The position numbers and the translations under genes were made by a program. The notes under the pieces are model-generated. The model searched no databases. It worked only from the letters and a program-made list of their open reading frames with translations, and was not told the origin of the DNA. A stretch of 34,406 bases of DNA, taken from Acidimicrobiia bacterium. GTDB lineage: Bacteria > Actinomycetota > Acidimicrobiia > ATN3 > PSLF01. Positions 17,914-33,003 of this stretch are shown here, piece by piece. Each line of letters begins with the position of its first letter. Positions within the stretch are counted from its first letter, which is position 1. The stretch covers positions 1-34,406 of the forward strand of contig PSLF01000016.1 of NCBI GenBank assembly GCA_040289475.1, given 5' to 3'.

Positions 17914-18260
17914 AAGAACCCCACCAATGAGTCGCTCTTTCCGATGCTAGAAGACATCTTGTGTTTGAGATATGGCGTGAGCGCTTTGGGCGATATAAAT
18001 AGACGGCCAAGCAGCACTCACCCCCAACTAGGATAGCGACAAAATCGAGCACTCTCGTACGACCTACCCGCCAAGTTGGAGCAGGCATCGGTTCTCGAGA
18101 AATCGCACAAGTCCCTCTCGAGAGTTGGTTTTCACGTCGCCTATCGCACATATGGCTTTGAAACGTTACGAGTAGCTATACTCCGCCTTTGGCACTGGCT
18201 TTTTGCCGGCTCTTGCTACATAGTTCACCAAAGCGCCTCGAGTATCGGACGTATAGAGCT
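17914..18260. other. Intergenic region upstream of the nuo cluster
   Basis: The 347 bases separate the divergent patatin and nuoA genes and should contain both promoters. TATACT at 18177-18182 with TGGCTT 18 bases upstream is a weak candidate promoter for nuo. Two palindromes lie at 18092-18101 and 18115-18124. No conserved coding sequence was seen; an in-frame extension of nuoA to 18189 has no family similarity. Confidence 0.5.
18092..18124. promoter_or_regulatory. Paired palindromes TTCTCGAGAA and CTCTCGAGAG, possible operator
   Basis: TTCTCGAGAA (18092-18101) and CTCTCGAGAG (18115-18124) share the core TCTCGAGA, with centres 23 bases apart, about two helical turns. This arrangement suits a dimeric regulator binding both sites on one DNA face. 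They sit about 140-170 bases before nuoA. No known regulator is assigned. Confidence 0.25.
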
Positions 18261-18626
18261 ATGGAAGACTTTTACCAGCAGTACATCACAGTAGCCGCCG
18301 TCGCGGCAGCCGCCGTCGGTATGTTCGGCCTCATGCTGGGCCTGGCTTGGCTTCTACGGCCTTCCAATCCCACAAGGGAGAAACTTCTCACCTATGAATG
18401 TGGAGTAGATCCGGTAGGTGAAGACTGGAACCAAGCGCACGTGCGGTACTACTTGTACGCGTTATTGTTCGTTGTCTTCGATGTAGAGGCTGTATTTATT
18501 TTCCCCTGGGCCATTGTGCTGAGACAGCTAGGCGTATTTGCACTAGTAGAGATGGTAATTTTCGTGGGAATTCTCGCAGCTGCTCTTCTTTACGCGTATC
18601 GCAAGGGGGTCCTGTCGTGGGGTTAA
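18261..18626 (+). CDS. nuoA: NADH-quinone oxidoreductase subunit A
   Basis: Small membrane subunit of complex I at the junction of the quinone site and proton channel E. The 121-residue product has three hydrophobic segments and the conserved Y-E-C-G-V-D-P loop carrying the mobile-loop Cys, followed by the F-D-V-E-A-V-F segment with its conserved acidic residues. The ATG at 18261 is chosen because it gives the usual length; the frame could extend to 18189 but that part is unlike the family. The ribosome binding site is weak. First gene of the nuo cluster; its stop overlaps the nuoB start by 10 bases. Confidence 0.93.
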
Positions 18627-19132
18627 TCGACAGGTTTGGAGCGCCTAAGCCGCTCTCCTGGCTGCTCAACTGGTCGCGCAGCTACTCCTTGTGGCTTTTT
18701 CAGTTTGGTCTAGCATGCTGCGCAATAGAGATGATCGCGGCGGCCTCACCCAGGTACGACTTGATGCGTTTCGGAGTGATTCCGTTCCCGGCATCTCCCC
18801 GTCAAAGCGACCTGATGGTAGTAGCTGGCACTGTAACCGACAAGATGGCACCCGCTATCCGTCGTGTATACGAGCAAATGCCCGATCCCAAGTACGTCAT
18901 CTCAATGGGATCGTGTTCCAACTGTGGAGGACCTTACTGGGATTCGTACTCCGTCACCAAAGGCGTCGACCAGATCATTCCAGTAGACGTCTATGTTCCT
19001 GGCTGTCCACCAAGACCGGAGGCGCTGCTCCAAGGCATCGTAGAGCTTCAGAAAAAAATTCGCTCGGAAGATCCAAAGGTCCGTTGGACGGAGGGTCCAC
19101 GTGGTCGCCGGCCAGCCGGTTCACGCACCTAA
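18617..19132 (+). CDS. nuoB: NADH-quinone oxidoreductase subunit B
   Basis: Carries the terminal 4Fe-4S cluster N2 that reduces quinone in complex I. The four ligands are visible: the tandem pair Cys34-Cys35, Cys100 in G-S-C-S-N-C-G-G and Cys130 in [10 protein letters not shown]. Length, 171 residues, is normal. The start is GTG behind a GGGGG stretch about eight bases upstream, inside the end of nuoA. Its last 32 bases overlap nuoC, which indicates tight translational coupling. The C-terminal tail is basic. Confidence 0.96.
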
Positions 19133-19964
19133 GCCCTCACCAGAGGAGATAGTGGCCCACTTACGCCGTGGGCTGGGGGACGCGTTGGAGTACGCGTTCA
19201 TTGATAACGATAGGGTAGTTTGCCGGGTGCACAAAGATGCTTGGTTGGATGCAGTTCGCTTCGTTCGAGAAGACCCTGCGTTGGGATGCACTTTCTTTTC
19301 ATGGCTGTCAGCGATCGACTGGACTCAAGTAGAACTTGCTGACGCGGAGGCCGAGCCGGCAACAGAAAGTAGTGTCGAAGATGATAGCTCCGATTCTTCC
19401 GGAATGAGTAATCCTCAAGGAGTAGACAACAGCGCATCCGAAGGCGCGGTTGGGTCCGAGAATTCGACGTCTCCCTCTACAGTGGCCCCCTCACGAGAAG
19501 ACACGTCAGATTCGGCAACCAAGTCAGGCGGCGAGTCAAGCCACGAGAAAGGGCTAGTCGCTCCGCAACCCGACAGTCGAGGAATTGTTTCGTACTACCA
19601 ACCTGCAGGCGAGTTGTTCGAGGTGTGTTGCCACTTATCTGCTCCCCAACGCGGATTCGGCATAACTCTCAAAACTGCCGTAGACAAAGAAAACCCTACG
19701 ATTCCCTCTCTCGTGCCAGCGATAAAGGGTGCTGACTGGCATGAGCGAGAGTGTCACGAGATGTTCGGGATTGTCTTCGAGGGACATCCGAACCTAGCAA
19801 AGCTGTATTTGCCCGAGGAGTTCGAAGGCCATCCTCTTCGCAAGTCATATTTGTTGGGTGCACGGGTTGTAAAACCGTGGCCTGGTCTCGTCGATGTCGA
19901 AGAAATTCCACCCGAATTGGAACCCCAGCTTGATGCTGTCGCCAGAGGGAAAAACGAAGAGTGA
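19101..19964 (+). CDS. nuoC: NADH-quinone oxidoreductase subunit C with acidic serine-rich insert
   Basis: Peripheral-arm subunit (30-kDa family) that scaffolds NuoD and NuoI. The family signature [15 protein letters not shown] is at about 210-224, followed by G-H-P-L-R-K-S-Y (243-250). The product is 287 residues against about 200 for common NuoC. The excess is one block, roughly residues 80-160, rich in Ser, Glu, Asp, Thr and Gly and lacking hydrophobic runs, inserted between the D-W of the N-terminal fold and the S-Y-Y-Q-P-A-G strand. It is probably a disordered loop on the surface. The GTG start has GGAGGG five bases upstream. The gene overlaps nuoB by 32 bases and nuoD by four (GTGA). 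Confidence 0.94.
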
Positions 19965-21139
19965 GTACCGAGAGCCTCACTGGAGACTTGGCGCAACAAG
20001 CTCGGGTCGCGGCCCACGTAGCCGACACCAAGGTGAGCATCGACATCCGAGCAGGCGAAATGACTTTGAACATCGGTCCGCAGCATCCCGCTACGCATGG
20101 TGTTCTGCGCCTCGTCGTCACCTTGGATGGCGAGAAAGTTGAGTCATGCGAGCCTGTCTTGGGCTACATGCATCGCGGATACGAAAAACTTGCAGAAGTA
20201 CGTACGTATCCACAGATCACAACGCTGGTAAACCGCATCGACTGGGTCTCTGGCTTCGCCAACGAAATCCCGTTGGTACTCGCCGCCGAGACGCTTCTCG
20301 GAATCGATGCTCCTCCTAGGGCCCAGTACATCCGAACGCTGCTAGCGGAAATGCAACGTATCGCAAGCCACCTTGTATTCTTCGGGGCCTATCCGCTGGA
20401 GGTCGGGGCCATCACTCCGATGTTTCACAGCTTCAGAGAGCGAGAGCGGGTCTTGGACCTGATCGAGTCCGTTACCGGTGGGAGATTTCACCCCAACTAC
20501 AACCGAGTCGGTGGACTGAAAGAAGACCTACCTGCCGGCTTCAAGAAGGCAACCGCCGAAGCTATGGAGTCAGTTCGAAAAGTGGCATCGGATCTGGAAG
20601 ACCTTCTACTGGGCAACGATATTTTTGCTGAGCGGACCAAAGGGGTTGGGGTCCTACCCGCCACTCTTGCCTGCGAACTCGGTGTATCGGGGCCCAACCT
20701 TCGAGCATCTGGGATAGCCGAGGATATTCGGCGCAGCGAGCCTTACTTGGTCTATGACGAGCTTGAATTCAATGTCATTACTCAAAACGAGGGGGACGCC
20801 TACGCTCGCACGGTCGTAAGGCTGAAAGAGCTCGTTGAAAGTACCTACATCGTGGACCAGTGCCTCGACTCGATGCCATCTGGCCCGATCATGGCGAAAG
20901 TGCCTAGGGTCATAAAAATTCCGGAGGGCGAAGTCTACGTTCGAGCAGAGAACCCTCGCGGCGAGATGGGGTACTACTTAGTATCCAGAGGCGGAACCCG
21001 GCCCTATCGACTAAAAATCAGATCGGCTTCTTTTTCCAATATTTCGTGTCTTCCGTACTTGCTCAAAGGCGTCTACGTAGCCGACATAATTGCCATCCTC
21101 GGAAGCTTGGACTTTGTACTAGGCGATGTAGATCGCTAG
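19961..21139 (+). CDS. nuoD: NADH-quinone oxidoreductase subunit D
   Basis: The 49-kDa-type subunit that forms the quinone pocket with NuoB. G-P-Q-H-P-A-T-H-G (39-47) is the diagnostic quinone-binding loop, and G-Y-M-H-R-G-Y-E-K (68-76) and the N-R-I-D-W block follow as in all NuoD. It is 392 residues and separate from NuoC, unlike the fused NuoCD of E. coli. The GTG start overlaps the nuoC stop as GTGA. Its mitochondrial homologue NDUFS2 is the methylation target of NDUFAF7, a relative of which is encoded at the end of this cluster. The next gene is nuoH; nuoE, nuoF and nuoG, which follow nuoD in many genomes, are absent. Confidence 0.96.
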   Translation: MSTESLTGDLAQQARVAAHVADTKVSIDIRAGEMTLNIGPQHPATHGVLRLVVTLDGEKVESCEPVLGYMHRGYEKLAEVRTYPQITTLVNRIDWVSGFANEIPLVLAAETLLGIDAPPRAQYIRTLLAEMQRIASHLVFFGAYPLEVGAITPMFHSFRERERVLDLIESVTGGRFHPNYNRVGGLKEDLPAGFKKATAEAMESVRKVASDLEDLLLGNDIFAERTKGVGVLPATLACELGVSGPNLRASGIAEDIRRSEPYLVYDELEFNVITQNEGDAYARTVVRLKELVESTYIVDQCLDSMPSGPIMAKVPRVIKIPEGEVYVRAENPRGEMGYYLVSRGGTRPYRLKIRSASFSNISCLPYLLKGVYVADIIAILGSLDFVLGDVDR

Positions 21140-21149
21140 GGGATACTTG

Positions 21150-22166
21150 ATGAGCTTGCAGTTTCTCATAGAGATTGTCGTAAAACTGCTGGCCATTATG
21201 GTCATAGTGCCAGGAGCTGGGCTCGTGCTGGGCTACACCGAGCTTAAAGTAATGGCTCACATGCAGTCTCGCTTGGGTCCCATGGAAGCCGGGCGGTTTC
21301 ACGGGTGGGCACAGCTAATCGCTGACGGGCTCAAGTTTTTACAGAAAGAGGATGTCGTACCTGAAGCAGCAGATAAGCGTGTCTTCAAAATTGCACCAGC
21401 CGTGGTCTTGGTGAGTACCTTTCTTCTTTTGGTAGTCATCCCGTTCGGCCCAGATCGACGACTCTGGATAGAAAACTTGAGTATCGGCTTGTTTTATGCG
21501 CTGGCAGTTGGTGCGCTGGGCGTGCTTGGCGTGTTGATGGCAGGGTGGGCATCTAACAACAAGTACTCACTAATTGGAGCGCTAAGAGCGGCGGCCCAGC
21601 TTATCGCCTATGAACTTCCCCTCGTCCTTTCGGCCGTCGCCGTTGCAATTCAGGCCCAAAGCTTGTCTTTGGTGGACATCGTCAATGCGCAAGCTGCGTT
21701 CAAAATTGCTGGCCTTCCGGTACCCTACGTAGTCCCCCAGTTCTTGGGGTTCGTCATTTTCGTGACGGCATCGGTGGCCGAGCTCAGCCGCACCCCCTTT
21801 GACATGCCTATAGCCGAGAGCGAGTTGGTCACGGGGCCCTATACCGAGTACACAGGGTTTCGGTTTCTCTTCTTCTTTCTAGCCGAGTACGCAGGAATGT
21901 TCGCGCTCTCCGCAATTGCAGCCACAATCTACCTCGGTGGATACTGGGTTCCCGGCGTCCCCCCGCAAATGGCGACTTTTATAGGTCCCATTGCACTGTT
22001 CGTCAAGACGGGAATCGTTGCATTCATCATGATGTGGATTAGATCGACCTTTCCGCGCCTGAGAGAGGATCAGCTCCAGCAGCTAGCCTGGAAATACTTA
22101 ATCCCGCTCTCTCTTTTGAACATTTTTTTGGTCGGTACCGGCGTTGCTTTAGTAGCGGCACGCTGA
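21150..22166 (+). CDS. nuoH: NADH-quinone oxidoreductase subunit H
   Basis: Membrane subunit that links the quinone cavity to the proton-pumping arm. About eight hydrophobic helices are present, with the conserved R-L-G-P-M-E-A-G...Q-L-I-A-D-G-L-K loop near the N-terminus and the S-R-T-P-F-D-M-P-I-A-E-S-E-L-V-T-G loop that lines the quinone channel. The ATG at 21150 is preferred: AGGGG is seven bases upstream, while the in-frame TTG one codon earlier is too close. Product 338 residues, normal length. Nine bases or so separate it from nuoD. Confidence 0.96.
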   Translation: MSLQFLIEIVVKLLAIMVIVPGAGLVLGYTELKVMAHMQSRLGPMEAGRFHGWAQLIADGLKFLQKEDVVPEAADKRVFKIAPAVVLVSTFLLLVVIPFGPDRRLWIENLSIGLFYALAVGALGVLGVLMAGWASNNKYSLIGALRAAAQLIAYELPLVLSAVAVAIQAQSLSLVDIVNAQAAFKIAGLPVPYVVPQFLGFVIFVTASVAELSRTPFDMPIAESELVTGPYTEYTGFRFLFFFLAEYAGMFALSAIAATIYLGGYWVPGVPPQMATFIGPIALFVKTGIVAFIMMWIRSTFPRLREDQLQQLAWKYLIPLSLLNIFLVGTGVALVAAR

Positions 22167-22197
22167 GCCAGCCTGAGAAGTCTGGAGAGACACCAAC

Positions 22198-22671
22198 ATG
22201 TCTGCACCAATCGTAGGACTTGCTAAAGGAATGGCCGTGACGCTGAGAACCATGTTGTCGCGCTCCGTCACGGTTCAGTATCCGCACGAAAAAGAGGCGC
22301 CCCACCCCCGGGCTCGGGGCGTTATAGCTCTCAAGGAAGAAAACTGCACTGTATGCATGCTATGTGCAAGATCATGTCCTGACTGGTGCATATACATAGA
22401 AGGACACAAAGTAAAAGCTCCCCCGAGGAGGCCAGGGGGTCGACCTCGTACCATCAACTTACTCGATCGTTTCGATATCGATTATGCCCTCTGCATGTAC
22501 TGTGGAATATGCGTGGAGGTGTGTCCCTTCGATGCCCTGTTTTGGAGCCCGGAGTATGAGTACGCGGAAACTTCGATAGCTAACCTGCTGCATGACAAAG
22601 AGAAGCTTGGACAGTGGATGGAGACTGTCCCTGAGCCACCGGCGTTGGAGGAAGGGGCGTCCCAACGATGA
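22198..22671 (+). CDS. nuoI: NADH-quinone oxidoreductase subunit I
   Basis: Carries clusters N6a and N6b that pass electrons toward NuoB. Two ferredoxin-type motifs are intact: [12 protein letters not shown] in the first and [12 protein letters not shown] in the second. At 157 residues it is of usual length, with an amphipathic N-terminal stretch that would sit on the membrane. GGAGAG lies roughly ten bases upstream of the ATG. Its stop overlaps the nuoJ start as ATGA. Confidence 0.95.
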
Positions 22672-23180
22672 ATGGTACCAACCCCTTCCTCGTTACTACT
22701 TTTATCGCCGTCGCTGCGGTGATGTTGTGGAGCGCTATTGGCGTAGTAACTGTACGAAACGTAGTACACGCCGCCTTGTACCTTGTACTGACCCTTGGAT
22801 CTACTGCTGTCTTATACGTCATTCTCGCGGCCGAATTTATTGCATGGGTCCAAGTCCTCGTATACGTGGGTGCCATAGTAGTCTTGTTCTTGTTTGGAAT
22901 TATGTTGACCCATGCGCCCATCGGAAAATCTCAGTTCCTTACAAATAACAAGATGGTCCTATATGGCATACTCGCAGCTGCCATATTTGGAGGCGTGATG
23001 TTATATACCATCGGAGCAGCCTTTGGAAGGTCCCAGTTGTTTACTCCGGTGCAGCAGGGAGCCGGAATCGCACAAGTCGGATCTGACCTTATGACGACCT
23101 GGGTCGTTCCTTTCGAAGCTGTTTCGATGGTTTTGCTTGCCGCTTTAATTGGTGCCCTCGCAGTAGCCAGAAAGGACTGA
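22668..23180 (+). CDS. nuoJ: NADH-quinone oxidoreductase subunit J
   Basis: Membrane-arm subunit near the quinone module. Five hydrophobic segments occur in 170 residues, including the conserved [12 protein letters not shown] helix whose pi-bulge is important for coupling in other species. The ATG overlaps the nuoI stop by four bases. nuoK begins six bases after its TGA. Confidence 0.94.
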
Positions 23181-23186
23181 GAAGCC

Positions 23187-23495
23187 GTGAAGGTTTTTGC
23201 GCTTCTCGCTGTTTCCACAGCTCTATTTTCGATAGGAATCTATGGTGTATTGGTTCGCAGGAACGCTGTTTTGGTATTAATGAGTATTGAGCTCATGCTC
23301 AACGCAGTAGCCATCAATTTCATTACTTTTGGATCACAACTCACTGGCTCGGGCGCTGTCACTGCCCAAACCTTTGTGCTTTTCATAATAGCCATCGCAG
23401 CAGCTGAGGTTGGTATTGGAATTGCACTGGTCATAGCTTTGTACAGAGCCAAGGCAAACATAAACATTGATGAAGCGGATGCTCTCAAGTGGTAG
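23187..23495 (+). CDS. nuoK: NADH-quinone oxidoreductase subunit K
   Basis: Small three-helix proton-channel subunit of 102 residues, the usual size. The two buried glutamates essential in E. coli NuoK are present: Glu35 in M-S-I-E-L-M-L-N-A-V and Glu74 in A-A-A-E-V-G-I-G. Start is GTG six bases after nuoJ. Its TAG stop overlaps an AGGA motif that could serve a mini-frame leading into nuoL. Confidence 0.95.
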   Translation: MKVFALLAVSTALFSIGIYGVLVRRNAVLVLMSIELMLNAVAINFITFGSQLTGSGAVTAQTFVLFIIAIAAAEVGIGIALVIALYRAKANINIDEADALKW

Positions 23496-23503
23496 GAAAA
23501 GTA

Positions 23504-23530
23504 ATGCCTGAAGGGATGTCATATAGATGA
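23504..23530 (+). CDS. Candidate eight-residue mini-ORF coupling nuoK to nuoL
   Basis: ATG at 23504 opens a frame of eight codons (M-P-E-G-M-S-Y-R) ending in TGA at 23528-23530, which overlaps the nuoL ATG as ATGA. AGGA at 23494-23497 is six bases before the mini-ORF start. nuoL itself has only a distant AGGG upstream. The mini-ORF may therefore deliver ribosomes to nuoL by termination-reinitiation. Could be chance in a 31-base gap. Confidence 0.3.
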   Translation: MPEGMSYR

Positions 23531-25524
23531 TTATCGCCGCTGAGGCAGCGACACAACTTGCAGATGTCGGGCTCTTCAAGCTCGCCTGGATCATAGTTGT
23601 TGTCCCATTTATTTCTTGGCTTCTCACCCTTTTTTTTGGGAAGCGATCGCCCATGGACGGTGCAATTTACGGGATCATAGCGGTAGGGTTTGATCTTCTA
23701 CTGTCAGTAGTCATCTTCGTGCAAAATGCTTTGGGTACGCCTCCTTACAATCAACGAATCAATGCAATGCAGCTAGGACGGTTTGAAATAGAGTTTGGCC
23801 TTCACATAGATGGACTCGCGTCGATGATGCTCTTGGTGGTGACTCTTATTTCATTCCTTGTACATGTTTACTCCCTCGGATACATGAAAGGAGAGCCCCG
23901 GTACACCTTCTACTTTGCAACACTCTCCTTATTCACAGGCTCAATGCTCATTCTTGTGACCGCAGACAATCTTTTGCAGCTACTAGTTGGCTGGGAGCTT
24001 GTGGGTCTGTGCTCTTACCTTTTGATCGGCCATTATTGGGAGAAAAAGGAGAACTCAAACGCTGCTATCAAGGCATTTATAACGACCCGCGTGGGCGACG
24101 TGGGGATGATCTTCGGAATTGTGGTGCTCTTTTCGGCCTTGGGATCCTTCGACATCGCGAAGCTAAACGAGGCTGCATCATCCGGTGCCATTGCAAGAGG
24201 CGCTTTGACTGTTGGAGCTGCGCTTCTGTTCTGTGGAGCGGTCGGTAAATCTGCCCAGTTCCCTCTCCATGTGTGGTTGCCGGACGCAATGGCAGGCCCG
24301 ACTCCAGTCTCAGCGCTTATTCACGCAGCCACTATGGTCGTAGCGGGAGTGTATTTAGTAGCTCGAACCTTTGGTGTCTTTGAGCGCGCCTTCCACATAG
24401 GAGAGGCAGGCCCTCTGAACATCGTCGCCATCATTGGGACAATCACCATGCTCATGGCAGCTTTGTTGGCCCTCGTTCAAGATGACATAAAGCGAGTCCT
24501 CGCCTACTCCACAGTGAGCCAGCTCGGCTACATGATCGCGGCGCTAGGGGTAGGAGCCTGGACTGGCGCGGTGTTTCACCTTTTCACTCATGCAATGTTC
24601 AAGGCGCTTCTTTTCCTCGGAGCTGGATCGGTAATACACGCTGTGCACTCGAACAATATGTCTGATATGGGTGGATTGCGAAAGTATATGCCTCAGACGT
24701 TCTACACGTTTCTCATCGGGTCTGCTGCCCTAGCCGGTGTGCCTGGTCTGGCCGGATTTTTCTCAAAGGACGAAATTCTACATGGCGCCTTGAAAAACCA
24801 GTATTACCTGGTTTTTGGAGTCGGACTGCTAACAGCAGGCTTGACTGCCCTTTATATGACTCGCTGCGTCTACCTTACGTTTTTTAGCGAGTACAGAGGA
24901 CACGGACACCCCCACGAGTCTCCCCGTGTAATGACACTCCCCCTTATCACCCTAGCGGTCCTATCCATCTCAGTAGGTTATCTCAACTTCTGGGGTGTAA
25001 AAGGGTTCGGGACCTGGATTACCTTTGAAGGACATGGAGAAGTAGCAGCATTCGACCCGGTTGCTCTCTCGATGTCTGTGGCCGCCGCAGCAGGAGGTAT
25101 TCTAATTGGCTTACTTATTTATCACTGGAAACTTGGCCCACGCGGAGCCGTAGAACGAAGCACCATTTTAAGAGGACTACACAGATTTTTACTGAATCGC
25201 TACTACATTGACGAGTTGTACATAAAAGTTATTGTTCGACCTATACAGTACTCGCTCTCCAGAGCGGCTTACTGGATTAACCAAAACGTTATAGATGCCG
25301 TCGTCAATTCAGCGGGCATTCTCACTGCTAGAGGGTTAGCGCGCCTGGCTTACTGGTTCGACCAGAACGTCGTGGACTCTGTGGTGAATGCAGCAGCTGA
25401 GGAAACGGCAGAGACAGGTGGGGTTCTGCGGCACATTCAGACAGGAAAAGTACAGCAGTACGCAGCCGTAGTGATCGTTGCTTCTGCACTCTTGGGAATC
25501 ATGCTCGTTGTGTTCTTGCGATAG
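23527..25524 (+). CDS. nuoL: NADH-quinone oxidoreductase subunit L
   Basis: Distal antiporter-like proton-pumping subunit, 665 residues. The core shows W-E-L-V-G-L-C-S-Y-L-L-I (conserved Glu), F-P-L-H-V-W-L-P-D-A-M-A-G-P-T-P-V-S-A-L-I-H split across the helix-7/8 region, and F-S-K-D-E-I in the C-terminal half. After the core comes the extension that in other species forms the long lateral helix and last transmembrane helix. That extension contains a 27-residue tandem duplication: A-Y-W-(I/F)-(N/D)-Q-N-V-(I/V)-D starts at about residue 581 and again at 608. The ATG at 23527 has no good ribosome binding site and may depend on the mini-ORF just before it. Confidence 0.96.
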   Translation: MIIAAEAATQLADVGLFKLAWIIVVVPFISWLLTLFFGKRSPMDGAIYGIIAVGFDLLLSVVIFVQNALGTPPYNQRINAMQLGRFEIEFGLHIDGLASMMLLVVTLISFLVHVYSLGYMKGEPRYTFYFATLSLFTGSMLILVTADNLLQLLVGWELVGLCSYLLIGHYWEKKENSNAAIKAFITTRVGDVGMIFGIVVLFSALGSFDIAKLNEAASSGAIARGALTVGAALLFCGAVGKSAQFPLHVWLPDAMAGPTPVSALIHAATMVVAGVYLVARTFGVFERAFHIGEAGPLNIVAIIGTITMLMAALLALVQDDIKRVLAYSTVSQLGYMIAALGVGAWTGAVFHLFTHAMFKALLFLGAGSVIHAVHSNNMSDMGGLRKYMPQTFYTFLIGSAALAGVPGLAGFFSKDEILHGALKNQYYLVFGVGLLTAGLTALYMTRCVYLTFFSEYRGHGHPHESPRVMTLPLITLAVLSISVGYLNFWGVKGFGTWITFEGHGEVAAFDPVALSMSVAAAAGGILIGLLIYHWKLGPRGAVERSTILRGLHRFLLNRYYIDELYIKVIVRPIQYSLSRAAYWINQNVIDAVVNSAGILTARGLARLAYWFDQNVVDSVVNAAAEETAETGGVLRHIQTGKVQQYAAVVIVASALLGIMLVVFLR

Positions 25525-25537
25525 GAGGTAGGTGAGC

Positions 25538-27058
25538 GTGGAAGCTCTCGATAGATGGCTAGTTACCTTAGCAGTATTTCTTCCAGCCGCAGGCGTTGTA
25601 TTTTTACTTTTTATCCCCAAACAATATGATCTCCCGGCAAAAGTGACTGCTTTGATAGCCTCTGGATTAGCTCTGCTTGCAGGCATAGGAATCCTTTGGC
25701 GATTCGATTTCTCCCGATCGCACGAGGTACAGCTGGCGGTAAAAGCATCCTGGATTCCTCAGATAGATGTCAATTATCACGTTGGCGTTGACGGAATCAG
25801 TCTTCCATTACTTCTGCTCTCAGTATTCATCACATTCCTATGCGTTATATACACGTTTGACCACCTTCCCGAACCTGCCAATGCGAAAGCGTTTCTTTCG
25901 CTAGTACTGTTGTTAGAAACCGGGATGTCTGGAACATTTGTAGCGTTCGATCTTATTTTGTTTTTTATTTTTTGGGAGCTAGTACTTCTACCCATGTATT
26001 TCATAATCGGACTTTGGGGAGGCCCAAGGAAAGAGTATGCGGCGATCAAGTTCTTTCTTTACACGCTGTTTGGATCAGCTTTTATGCTTCTCGCGTTTCT
26101 GGCACTTTATTTCAAGGCCGGTACATTTGACATTTTGGAGCTTTCGACCGGTCTGGCCCAATTCTCAAAAGGGGCAGCACTTACTGTGTTCGCTGGCCTC
26201 TTCTTAGGCTTTGCAATAAAAGTGCCAATGTTTCCCTTTCATACATGGCTACCCGACGCTCACACCGAAGCTCCAACGGTTGGATCTGTACTGCTAGCAG
26301 CTGTATTGCTGAAGATGGGAACCTATGGCTTCGTAAGAATCGCACTTCCTGTCCTTCCCGATGCAGCTCGATCCTGGGCACCCGTTATTGGAATTCTTGG
26401 AGCGATCGGGATCGTTTACGCGGCGTTGTGTTGCATGGCTCAGTCAGACCTCAAGCGATTGGTAGCGTTTAGCTCAGTGGGACACATGGGATTCGTCATG
26501 CTTGGGATAGCCACCCTCACCCCGATCGGAATCAACGCCGCAATTTTCGGCATGCTGGCTCACGGAGTCATCACCGGGATGCTATTTTTTCTCGCTGGGT
26601 CGATACATGAGCGATACCACACGCGCGAGATCCCCGAACTGGGCGGTGGAATGTTAAAGAAAATACCGATCATCGCTTCACTGCTAGCGTTTACCTCTTT
26701 TGCCAGCTTGGGACTGCCAGGACTTGCTGGATTCTGGGGAGAGTTTCCGGCCTTATTAGCGAGCTACCAACCCGCACCTGGCCTTCCCGAGGCAACTTTT
26801 AGAGCTCTGATGGTCGCTGGAGGAGTTGGAACTGTTTTGGTAGCAGGGTATTTTTTGTGGATGCTTCAGCGGGTGAACTTGGGAGAGGTGCCGGCGCGCT
26901 GGGCTAGCCTACAAGCCCATGACATAAATCCCTACGAACTGCTCTCCTGGGTACCTCTTGTTGTACTCACCGTCGTTATGGGCATATACCCCAAGTTGGT
27001 ATTTGGAATTACCAACGGAGCAGTGGAGTCCCTGGCCCGGCTATTCGCATCAGGATAG
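25538..27058 (+). CDS. nuoM: NADH-quinone oxidoreductase subunit M
   Basis: Antiporter-like proton-pumping subunit, 506 residues. Typical blocks are F-W-E-L-V-L-L-P-M-Y with the conserved Glu of helix 5, F-P-F-H-T-W-L-P-D-A-H-T-E-A-P-T in the helix-7 region, and L-K-M-G-T-Y-G. The GTG at 25538 is preferred since AGGAGG ends nine bases before it; an in-frame GTG at 25532 is only three bases away. The Shine-Dalgarno sequence overlaps the nuoL stop. Confidence 0.95.
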   Translation: MEALDRWLVTLAVFLPAAGVVFLLFIPKQYDLPAKVTALIASGLALLAGIGILWRFDFSRSHEVQLAVKASWIPQIDVNYHVGVDGISLPLLLLSVFITFLCVIYTFDHLPEPANAKAFLSLVLLLETGMSGTFVAFDLILFFIFWELVLLPMYFIIGLWGGPRKEYAAIKFFLYTLFGSAFMLLAFLALYFKAGTFDILELSTGLAQFSKGAALTVFAGLFLGFAIKVPMFPFHTWLPDAHTEAPTVGSVLLAAVLLKMGTYGFVRIALPVLPDAARSWAPVIGILGAIGIVYAALCCMAQSDLKRLVAFSSVGHMGFVMLGIATLTPIGINAAIFGMLAHGVITGMLFFLAGSIHERYHTREIPELGGGMLKKIPIIASLLAFTSFASLGLPGLAGFWGEFPALLASYQPAPGLPEATFRALMVAGGVGTVLVAGYFLWMLQRVNLGEVPARWASLQAHDINPYELLSWVPLVVLTVVMGIYPKLVFGITNGAVESLARLFASG

Positions 27059-27086
27059 GGTTGGCGTACACCCAGAAAGGTTGGAG

Positions 27087-28568
27087 ATGCCAAACTTTGA
27101 TTATCACGCACTTGCTCCCGAATCGATCCTAACAGGAATAGCACTTATCGTTCTTCTCGTAGATCTTTTTCTACCGAGGCAATGGAAGTGGCTAACCGCT
27201 ACGCTTGCCGGTGCTGGGGTTCTAGCTGCGCTAGTCCCTGTTCTAACTCTGTGGGTGACACCAGGCCCGAGGGAACTCTTTGGGGGCAGCTTTGTTGTCG
27301 ATCGCTTTTCCCTTGTTTTGAAAGCACTGTTTTTGGGTTCTTCTTTTATTACATTGCTTCTTGCCTTCCGTTACATAGAAGATGGATCTTACAAAGAAGG
27401 CGAGTTTTATTTTCTGCTCCTCTCCTCGGTCCTAGGAATGCTCGTCATTTCTTCGGCACGGGATCTTATTACTTTGTTTATCGCTATTGAGCTAGTTTCT
27501 TCTCCTACTTACTTGCTAGCTGGATGGAGAAAAACGGACCCTAATTCCATTGAGGGCGCGCTTAAATACTTCTTGATCGGTGTTCTGTCGATAGCGGTTT
27601 CACTGTATGGGATGTCTTTGATTTTCGGCATTACCGGCGGTAGTCTTCGGTTTCAGACGATTTCTTCGTTCTTTGCTTCCGGGCCCCCCCACGACGTCGC
27701 AGTACTCGGCGCAGTCGCCGTAGTATTGGTACTGGTAGGGTTCGCATTCAAAATCTCCGCCGTGCCATTTCACTTCTGGGCTCCAGATGCTTATCAGGGG
27801 GCCCCAACCCCGGTGACGGCCTTTTTGTCCGTCGCATCAAAAGCCGCGGGATTTGTCGGAATCTACTCGCTGATCCTGGTGGCGTTCCCGGCTCAAGTCA
27901 ATGTGTGGCGGCCTGTAATATATGGACTTGCAGTTGCCACGATGACCGTCGGCAATTTGATCGCTCTCCGACAAACCAATGTTGTTAGGCTTTTGGCTTA
28001 TTCATCTATTGCTCACGCCGGATACATCCTCGCTCCACTTGCAGCTATAGGCTCCGACGGACGTATCTCGGGCTCGTCCCTCTCTGCCTCCATTAGCTAT
28101 CTCTTCGTGTACGCCGTTATGAACCTCGGTGCCTTCGGAGCCGTCATAGCAATCGCTCAAACAACTAAATCCGCCGAAGTATCGACGTGGACGGGGTTAG
28201 TGAAACGAGCACCCTGGCTCACGCTTACCACCGTATTCTTTTTGTTTTCCCTTGCAGGGGTCCCCCCAGCGGCCGGGATCTGGGCCAAGTTCCTTGTATT
28301 TAGGGCAATAGTGAAAGCGGGGGGAGGTACAAACCTTGCCCTTGCTGCTATCGTAGCGCTCAATTCAGTGATCGCGGTGTTCTACTACGCCAATGTTGCT
28401 AAAAAAATGATTTTCGATTCCGCTTCTAGCGAGCTTGATGCGACCGAAAATGTTCCCGTTCCGTCCACCGTGGCGTCTGCATTGGGGATTCTGGCAGGTA
28501 TCACTTTGCTATGGTTCATCCTTCCAAATTTCGTGTTTCACCTCGGTGCGACAGGGGTGTTTCAATAG
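27087..28568 (+). CDS. nuoN: NADH-quinone oxidoreductase subunit N
   Basis: Third antiporter-like subunit, 493 residues. I-E-L-V-S-S-P-T-Y-L-L-A-G carries the conserved Glu of helix 5, and V-P-F-H-F-W-A-P-D-A-Y-Q-G-A-P-T-P-V is the NuoN form of the helix-7 signature. The ATG at 27087 has AAAGG at the right distance and gives the usual N-terminus; the open frame extends back to 26958 inside nuoM but that part is not NuoN-like. Last complex I subunit gene of the cluster; its final 58 bases overlap the methyltransferase gene. Confidence 0.95.
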   Translation: MPNFDYHALAPESILTGIALIVLLVDLFLPRQWKWLTATLAGAGVLAALVPVLTLWVTPGPRELFGGSFVVDRFSLVLKALFLGSSFITLLLAFRYIEDGSYKEGEFYFLLLSSVLGMLVISSARDLITLFIAIELVSSPTYLLAGWRKTDPNSIEGALKYFLIGVLSIAVSLYGMSLIFGITGGSLRFQTISSFFASGPPHDVAVLGAVAVVLVLVGFAFKISAVPFHFWAPDAYQGAPTPVTAFLSVASKAAGFVGIYSLILVAFPAQVNVWRPVIYGLAVATMTVGNLIALRQTNVVRLLAYSSIAHAGYILAPLAAIGSDGRISGSSLSASISYLFVYAVMNLGAFGAVIAIAQTTKSAEVSTWTGLVKRAPWLTLTTVFFLFSLAGVPPAAGIWAKFLVFRAIVKAGGGTNLALAAIVALNSVIAVFYYANVAKKMIFDSASSELDATENVPVPSTVASALGILAGITLLWFILPNFVFHLGATGVFQ

Positions 28569-29911
28569 GGCCACTCCTCTCTCGTATACGCACAGAGATA
28601 GAGGAGCATGGGCCGATCACTTTCGCTCGTTACATGCAGTTGGCTCTTTATGACTCCACATACGGCTTTTACGCAAAAAGTAATCACCGGGGCTCGAGAG
28701 TTGATTTTGTTACATCTCCGGAGATATCTCCACTTTTCGGCTACTTCATAGCAGCACATGCCCTTCAGGCTTGCAATGATGCGCTGAATTTATCTGGATC
28801 GAAGCCGTTTCTGCAAATTGTTGAGTTTGGCGGCGCCAGAGGAACTCTTGTCTCCCAAATCGCGTCATTTTTTGGCTTCGCACCACCAAAAACCGAATCG
28901 TTTCCAAGAGTCGACGTAGCCGCCAGGCTTGTCCAAGAACTTCGCGTGGCTATGGGCGTAGATGTCACTACAGATTTCGAGGTCTCGGCCGTTTACTACT
29001 GTGTAGTCGATCCAGGATTAAAAACGGAGAGCACCGCAGAGGACATGTTTGCATTGGATTGGATCCCAATTCCTGGTATACCTCCGTTGGCTTCTTCTGT
29101 ACACGTAGAATTTTATAGCACTCCAGATTATGCTTTGAAAAAGACAATGCCACATCGGGAAGTATCTTCGTACAAACTGGTGTTGGCCAACGAAGTATTC
29201 GATAATCTTCCCTCGCATCTGTACGTCAAAGATGGTATCGAAGTCCGCGAGCTGTTAGTCAACATCTACCACGATCGCTTAGTTCTTTATGCACCGCGAA
29301 ATTCGCTTCTGGATATCCCTGAATATCTTATGGATGAGGTCGCGTGGCGCCCATTATCGGATCTTCCAGCAGGGCTAGCACAGGCAATTCATCCAGATAC
29401 AGCTTGTTCTTTGACCGAAAAAGCTGCTATAGCAGTTGTTTCTCCAAACCAAGAACGGCTAGCAGCCCTGATGTGCGAGATGGCTACATCGGGGAGTGCT
29501 GGGGGTGTTCTCATATTCGATCTCTCCAAAAACCCTTACGAATCCCCTGTCATCGCATACTCTCGGCACCAACAGTTGCTAGACCCGTTTACCTCCCCTG
29601 GGGAAATCGACATTATGGTCCCAGTTCAGTGGAAGCGTGTTTTAGAGCAGATTGAGCGGCGTGGACTAAAGTCATCTCCCCTGAGAAAACAAGGCGAGTG
29701 GTTAGAAAAGCGGGGGTTGGGCAAAGTCTTGAAGATCCTTGCTGCAGCGTGCTCCTTTTGGGATCCGTCTGTTGCGAGCCCCTTGGATGAACTTCAAGCA
29801 CGCTCGCTTTTGGTGTCGGCTCATGCTTTATCCGATCCCACGGGACTAGGGAGCTTCACCGTCTTAGAAGCGAGTAAAAATGTCGATCCCCTCGCGGCGT
29901 CCTCAAGATAG
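28511..29911 (+). CDS. MidA/NDUFAF7-type SAM-dependent methyltransferase (DUF185 family)
   Basis: A 466-residue protein of the class I methyltransferase family that includes human NDUFAF7 and Dictyostelium MidA, which methylate an arginine of the NuoD homologue during complex I assembly. The N-terminal family block is clear: Y-M-Q-L-A-L-Y-D-S-T-Y-G-F-Y (41-54) and D-F-V-T-S-P-E-I-S-P-L-F-G (65-77). SAM motif I reads E-F-G-G-A-R-G-T-L (105-113), whereas E-I-G-P-G-R-G-T-L is usual, so one glycine is alanine. A-N-E-V-F-D-N-L-P (226-234) is the second hallmark, separated from motif I by about 110 residues, more than in typical members. No alternative start codon lies before the conserved block, so the ATG inside nuoN is used. 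The 58-base overlap ties its expression to nuoN. Confidence 0.85.
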   Translation: MVHPSKFRVSPRCDRGVSIGPLLSRIRTEIEEHGPITFARYMQLALYDSTYGFYAKSNHRGSRVDFVTSPEISPLFGYFIAAHALQACNDALNLSGSKPFLQIVEFGGARGTLVSQIASFFGFAPPKTESFPRVDVAARLVQELRVAMGVDVTTDFEVSAVYYCVVDPGLKTESTAEDMFALDWIPIPGIPPLASSVHVEFYSTPDYALKKTMPHREVSSYKLVLANEVFDNLPSHLYVKDGIEVRELLVNIYHDRLVLYAPRNSLLDIPEYLMDEVAWRPLSDLPAGLAQAIHPDTACSLTEKAAIAVVSPNQERLAALMCEMATSGSAGGVLIFDLSKNPYESPVIAYSRHQQLLDPFTSPGEIDIMVPVQWKRVLEQIERRGLKSSPLRKQGEWLEKRGLGKVLKILAAACSFWDPSVASPLDELQARSLLVSAHALSDPTGLGSFTVLEASKNVDPLAASSR

Positions 29912-32298: not shown

Positions 32299-33003
32299 TT
32301 ATCCGACCTCTTCTAAAATCTGCTCCAGCGGCTTTCTGATCCCAACGACAAACGGTGTGTCAAGCTTGGTAAAGCGCCTTGCTTCTGCGTCACGAAGGCG
32401 CCTGATGCAATCGACGATTTTGATAAGGTCGTCCGACTCGAAAGCCAGTATCCACTCCCAGTCACCAAGTCCGAATCCAGAAGTTGTATTGGTCAGTACC
32501 TCAGGAAACTCGCGCCCCATCTGCCCGTGCTCCCTCAACAACTCCGCACGCCGTGCCGAGTCCATGAGATACCATTCTGCAGTCCTCACGAACGGGTACA
32601 CACATATATAACGGCGAGGCGGTTCACCCTTTGCAAAAGCCGGCATGTGATCAGGGTTGAACTCGGGAGGTCTGACCACGCCCAAAAAGATGTGAGATGG
32701 CTCTAGGGCTGCTCCAGTAAACGTCTTGCGAAGCGACACGTAGGTGCTTTGAAGAGCCTCGACACTGCGAGATGTCATCCACAATAAAAGGTCTACATCG
32801 GGTCTGAAGCCTTCGCAGTTGTACGAGCCCCGGAGCTCTACGCTGCCGTCACTCTTCGCCAACACTTCCGGGAGCACGGTACCTAGATCCCCGCTTGCGA
32901 CGGGCGGTAGCGAACCTTCGCCAACCCATAAAGCTTCATTTCTTCTCGGGATAGACACCCTGCGGAAGGCTACATAGTGTGCAAAAAGCGCCTCATCACT
33001 CAT
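32299..33003 (-). CDS. hemQ: HemQ coproheme decarboxylase (chlorite dismutase-like family)
   Basis: The last enzyme of the coproporphyrin-dependent heme pathway, converting coproheme III to heme b with peroxide. The 234-residue product has the family's C-terminal core: Y-P-F-V-R-T-A-E-W-Y (136-145) with the tyrosine expected at the reacting propionate, E-H-G-Q-M-G-R (158-164) whose His159 is the likely proximal heme ligand, and S-G-F-G-L-G-D-W-E-W (175-184). The E-H-G-x-x-G-R form and the pathway itself are typical of Actinobacteria and Firmicutes. True chlorite dismutases keep a distal arginine in a different setting, so HemQ is the better call. Divergent from the YajQ gene; no other heme genes are in the window. 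Confidence 0.9.
   Translation of the reverse strand: MSDEALFAHYVAFRRVSIPRRNEALWVGEGSLPPVASGDLGTVLPEVLAKSDGSVELRGSYNCEGFRPDVDLLLWMTSRSVEALQSTYVSLRKTFTGAALEPSHIFLGVVRPPEFNPDHMPAFAKGEPPRRYICVYPFVRTAEWYLMDSARRAELLREHGQMGREFPEVLTNTTSGFGLGDWEWILAFESDDLIKIVDCIRRLRDAEARRFTKLDTPFVVGIRKPLEQILEEVG

Follow-up and report, generated by a model that had tools for sequence, protein, structure and literature searches.

Linkage of a MidA/NDUFAF7-family methyltransferase gene with an 11-subunit complex I operon in Acidimicrobiia and co-occurrence of MidA with arginine-type NuoD in Actinomycetota

Organization of the nuo-midA locus

The analyzed stretch of DNA (hereafter the window) comprises 34,406 nucleotides of an Acidimicrobiia bacterium (contig PSLF01000016.1, positions 1 to 34,406) and carries a cluster of nuo genes followed by a methyltransferase gene on the same strand. 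The relevant features are as follows.

18189-28568 (+): nuo cluster of an 11-subunit complex I (nuoA, B, C, D, H, I, J, K, L, M and N), without nuoEFG
18617-19132 (+): nuoB of the 11-subunit complex, with threonine at the switch position, as in mitochondrial-type enzymes
19961-21139 (+): nuoD of the 11-subunit complex (TIGR01962, 461.6 bits), encoding the predicted substrate
20174-20176 (+): codon CGC of NuoD Arg72, the predicted site of symmetric dimethylation (GYMHRGYEK, aligned with bovine NDUFS2 Arg85)
27087-28568 (+): nuoN (TIGR01770, 382 bits), likely ATG at 27087, the final 58 bases shared with midA
28511-29911 (+): midA, a SAM-dependent methyltransferase of the MidA/NDUFAF7 family (PF02636, DUF185/COG1565), assigned by its PF02636 match and by sequence and fold matches in the PDB

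The midA ORF begins with an ATG and encodes 466 amino acids. The initial annotation had placed a MidA/NDUFAF7-type gene at this position, with an overlap of 58 bases with nuoN, and both statements were confirmed: the product has a PF02636 match and a MidA fold, and the nuoN stop codon occupies positions 28566-28568. In related proteins, the start is mostly located 16-24 residues upstream of a conserved F-x-x-[YF]-M landmark, compared with 37 residues for the ATG at 28511. A later start that would remove the overlap was ruled out, since no in-frame ATG, GTG or TTG occurs between 28511 and the landmark; unless translation begins at a non-standard codon, the overlap is therefore retained. In relatives, the overlaps between the two genes are shorter or lacking altogether, but the two genes are as a rule adjacent. 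The nuo genes and midA share one strand, separated by overlaps or short gaps, and consensus scans of this region for terminator-like sites gave no excess over shuffled sequence. From their arrangement, the nuo genes and midA are presumably co-transcribed. Further downstream, a gene of the chlorite dismutase family on the opposite strand (32299-33003; PF06778, 194 bits) probably encodes the haem synthesis enzyme HemQ.

Family membership and predicted fold of the MidA protein

The match of the 466-residue protein to PF02636 (Methyltransf_28) scored 58.8 bits (E 7.5e-16; gathering cut-off 23.3), and solved MidA/DUF185 chains (1ZKD, 4F3N and 5ZTZ) were matched in sequence with E-values of 3e-11 to 2e-9, while an NCBIfam search of the protein yielded no matches. 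In the genome, 1.97 Mb in size, midA is the sole PF02636 copy. An AlphaFold2 model was built with 44 relatives (pLDDT 83.3, pTM 0.87). The top six PDB fold matches of this model were all MidA/DUF185 structures (among them 5ZTZ, 1ZKD, 5ZU0, 4F3N and 4G67; E about 1e-18), and the next kind of methyltransferase appeared at E 3e-4.

The window protein is a divergent member of the family, with 23-33% identity to its relatives in the alignments and a longer central region. It was entered in these alignments 16 residues short at the N-terminus, which leaves the conserved region unaffected. Its motif I reads GGARGTL, and FDLS appears in place of the DYG of relatives. These two changes (DYG to DLS, and motif I to GGARG) would suit a protein that has lost its activity in this lineage and serves NuoD as a non-catalytic assembly chaperone. 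Such a loss is considered improbable, given that the predicted fold is intact and that the alignment-invariant residues are kept (D49, F50, T52, E55, G95, E212, D215, N216, D321 and D351 in alignment numbering), including the ANExxDN motif and G95 of motif I.

Two forms of complex I in a single genome

The genome encodes a single NuoF, which lies on another contig (G000:C1) beside another NuoD, and a gap of 5.7 kb between nuoD and nuoH on that contig fits nuoEFG. Since nuoEFG are absent from the window cluster, and NuoF lies in a separate cluster with its own NuoD, the cell has two forms of complex I, one of 14 and one of 11 subunits; midA is part of the operon for the latter. The link with complex I proposed in the initial annotation is supported, although the linked form is the 11-subunit complex rather than the canonical 14-subunit enzyme, and the canonical NuoD of the same genome lacks the arginine. 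A complex related to [NiFe] hydrogenases was ruled out, as the large subunit matches the TIGR01962 NuoD model with 461.6 bits versus only about 20-25 bits for hydrogenase models.

NDUFAF7 is known to methylate the HRGxE arginine of NDUFS2, Arg85 (PMC3829151, PMC3750175, PMC8042128), and the position of the bovine Arg85 within this motif has been documented (PMC3750175, PMC8042128). The cognate arginine is present in the window NuoD (GYMHRGYEK) as Arg72. Among the Acidimicrobiia, the NuoD of the 11-subunit complex carried arginine at this position (HRGYEK in the window) in all 52 readable cases, two others being gapped, and the NuoD of the 14-subunit complex carried threonine (HTGMEK or HTGMER) in 30 of 30. 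In NuoB the arrangement is reversed: threonine was found in 50 of 50 proteins of the 11-subunit complex, and arginine in 26 of 27 of the 14-subunit complex (the remaining one was unread). The 14-subunit NuoB encoded in the window's own genome has arginine. Another position of NuoB also differs between the two forms, namely that of the arginine that is hydroxylated in the FRASPRQ motif of mammalian NDUFS7. It is occupied by proline (FPASPRQ) in the 11-subunit NuoB of Acidimicrobiia and by arginine in the 14-subunit NuoB. The inter-subunit switch between NuoD and NuoB has been described between Yarrowia and Thermus (PMC8042128); judging from the sequences, the same switch is represented here by two enzymes of one cell.

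Recurrent linkage of midA with nuo genes

The position of midA was further analyzed in 59 genomes of Acidimicrobiia (mostly one per genus). In 39 of these, the gene comes directly after nuoN on the same strand, and in another 10 it is found on that strand at a greater distance downstream, such that 49 of the 59 are linked; the other 10 were unlinked or broken by contig ends. In a collection search, nuoN was located directly before midA in 57 of 80 loci, but not in the alphaproteobacterial and heliobacterial loci of that collection. Outside the Acidimicrobiia, 24 of 53 MidA-positive genomes carry midA no more than 12 kb away from an arginine-type nuoD. A lack of recurrent nuo linkage, which the initial annotation had named, together with a lack of NuoD methylation, as speaking against its proposal, was thus not observed, either within the Acidimicrobiia or outside them.

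Distribution of MidA and arginine-type NuoD

Among 99 sampled genomes of Acidimicrobiia, NuoD was present in all and MidA in 86. Eight of the 13 MidA-negative genomes (G013, G035, G046, G054, G058, G062, G066 and G097) contain only threonine-type NuoD; a second NuoD-like match in G058 is a distant protein, 30% identical. The other five (G020, G024, G038, G080 and G095) possess an 11-subunit cluster, the contig of which ends before the midA slot, and were rejected as true losses of MidA for this reason. Within a single genus (G035 versus G094), the type of NuoD and the presence of MidA differ together.

At the level of the phylum, 296 actinobacterial genomes were analyzed, using degenerate DNA patterns for the arginine and threonine motifs together with PF02636. 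MidA was detected in 75 of 118 genomes with arginine-type NuoD and in 3 of 60 with the threonine type only (Fisher p 2.7e-15 for these two rows, shared ancestry ignored, as it is in all of the counts of MidA and NuoD). It was detected in none of the 118 genomes with neither pattern, some of which may hide unusual motifs because the re-reading covered MidA-positive genomes only. Ten MidA-positive genomes with unusual flanking residues were read singly, and all proved to carry the arginine (HRAAEK, HRSVEK, HRSLEK, HHRGAEK). Matches to the arginine pattern in families f48 and f61 (mostly GF[IV]HRGLE), which are hydrogenase-like, were left out of the counts; the two examples read were only 32-33% identical to NuoD. 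Contrasts also occur within families: G150, G132, G122 and G220 possess only threonine-type NuoD and lack MidA, whereas their relatives in f30, f35, f39 and f59 combine arginine-type NuoD with MidA. Families f39 and f59 also include arginine-positive relatives without MidA (G108 and G331). In view of the threonine-type genomes that lack MidA, the notion that MidA serves every complex I was rejected.

In 43 genomes of the phylum sample, an arginine-type NuoD-like match was found and MidA was not detected, which indicates that the arginine does not require MidA. In E. coli the arginine is present but unmodified (PMC3750175), which shows that the residue can function without the modification. The motif HRGFEK occurs in 31 of these 43 genomes versus 1 of the 75 with MidA (hand count), a difference that may reflect either the clades to which these genomes belong or a rule of substrate recognition. 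Conversely, three genomes with threonine-type NuoD only (G180, G277 and G318) carry MidA. Several copies of MidA were observed in families f62 and f65 (G252, G208 and G243), and some paralogues of MidA may have another role.

A function of MidA in the methylation of DNA or other targets has been proposed for the Wolbachia protein, for which preliminary DNA methylation upon expression in E. coli has been reported (PMC12455994), and the proximity to nuo genes would then be incidental. The distribution described above disfavours a DNA methylation role, with MidA lacking in all 118 genomes in which neither NuoD pattern was detected, and almost lacking in those with the threonine type only; in addition, the linkage with nuoD recurs in several different arrangements. 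This explanation is considered highly improbable.

The detached nuoD-midA pair

A second nuo cluster of the order A-B-C-H-I-J-K-L-M-N, from which nuoD is absent, was observed in the Streptomyces-like genomes (7-10 Mb in size) as well as in families f35, f36, f59 and f74 (in f74, nuoA and nuoN were not seen either, and there are further gaps). The single arginine-type nuoD of these genomes is found at another locus, at a distance of 1-9 kb from midA, and no further full set of nuo genes was recognised close by. Where the genome is complete, this pair lies about 185-290 kb away from the remainder of the second nuo cluster. The loci are as follows.

L251, L252, L255, L256, L258 and L259: nuoD-midA pairs
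L263, L264, L266, L268, L269 and L270: second nuo clusters without nuoD

The same pair was found in Nonomuraea gerenzanensis (L250), where the search covered the pair only. In one other complete genome (G154, L253), an arginine-type nuoD and midA are 3 kb apart, and a second, complete nuoH of the 11-subunit type was not found; this pair is possibly a relic, or its NuoD may be reused with another complex. The separation of nuoD2 in Streptomyces has been noted before (PMC3765725, PMC8388888); the neighbouring midA is not mentioned in the passages of those papers that were consulted.

The detached pairs bear on the question of which partner MidA serves. Within the Acidimicrobiia, the effect of the arginine cannot be separated at all from that of the 11-subunit form, so that the arginine could be a mere marker of the type of complex and MidA could act on another subunit or protein of the 11-subunit enzyme. 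The Streptomyces-like genomes and several other families, however, keep nuoD and midA together, away from the other nuo genes, and the same pairing exists in mitochondria and alphaproteobacteria with a complex of the 14-subunit type (PMC3829151, PMC3750175). Action on another subunit or protein is thus judged unlikely. That a nuoD removed from its operon is found with midA suggests that the partner is NuoD itself, and argues that it is NuoD that MidA modifies.

More tentatively, arginine-type nuoD and midA may represent a co-inherited maturation pair across the Actinomycetota, able to move out of the nuo operon jointly. In that case, methylation might label NuoD2 as a component of the second complex I and help to keep its parts separate from those of the threonine-type 14-subunit complex in the same cell.

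Proposed function of MidA

With good confidence, the product of midA is predicted to be a protein arginine methyltransferase acting for the 11-subunit complex I of its own operon, most likely by dimethylation of NuoD Arg72. A role shared with the human enzyme is very likely. The proposal in the initial annotation, that a bacterial MidA also serves complex I, is supported in that the presence of MidA tracks the target arginine and the linkage with nuo genes recurs. Its remark that this role has been little tested in bacteria is justified: the dimethylated arginine of NuoD has been measured in Paracoccus (PMC3750175, PMC11522691), and methyl-arginine on complex I, known from mitochondria, is unreported for other bacteria (PMC11522691).

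In the proposed mechanism, MidA would dimethylate Arg72 (the HRGxE arginine, bovine Arg85) of newly made NuoD, probably in symmetric form, before or during the joining of NuoD to NuoB. The modified side chain would pack beside the iron-sulphur cluster N2 and may contribute to the formation or tuning of the quinone site. No methylation step would be needed by the 14-subunit complex of the same cell, which carries threonine in NuoD and arginine in NuoB at these positions. The catalysis, the residue, its symmetric dimethylation, the timing and the effect on N2 are inferred, while the family and fold of MidA, its place in the operon, the target arginine and the recurrent association with arginine-type nuoD are observed.

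Neither the enzyme family nor its chemistry in mitochondria and Paracoccus is new; what appears to be novel is the evidence from actinobacteria and the pairing of nuoD with midA. The comparative evidence suggests that the pairing of enzyme and substrate extends to the Actinomycetota and to the 11-subunit complex. Cells with both arginine- and threonine-type NuoD offer a built-in control, and Streptomyces, which is genetically tractable and has a separated nuoD2, would allow a direct bacterial test of the effect of the modification.

Comparison with known systems

The window protein belongs to the same Pfam family as the NDUFAF7/MidA proteins of human and Dictyostelium (5ZTZ, 5ZU0), which include its best fold match (E 5.4e-19), and the HRGxE substrate motif is likewise present in its cognate NuoD. 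Within the aligned fold, the sequence identity is about 19%. In contrast to those proteins, the window protein is encoded by a gene embedded in a nuo operon and associated with a bacterial 11-subunit complex, and its activity is predicted. Family and fold are also shared with the proteobacterial DUF185 proteins of Rhodopseudomonas (1ZKD) and Burkholderia (4F3N/4G67), although the alphaproteobacterial midA loci that were fetched have no nuo genes nearby, unlike the window.

The Thermus complex I resembles the 14-subunit complex of the window genome, with threonine in NuoD and arginine in NuoB (PMC8042128). The 11-subunit complex of the window shows the opposite arrangement, and has MidA. A further parallel is nuo2 of Streptomyces (PMC3765725, PMC8388888), which is likewise a second complex I without the NADH module and with an arginine-type NuoD; nuoD2 is located outside that cluster, whereas the nuoD of the window lies inside its own.
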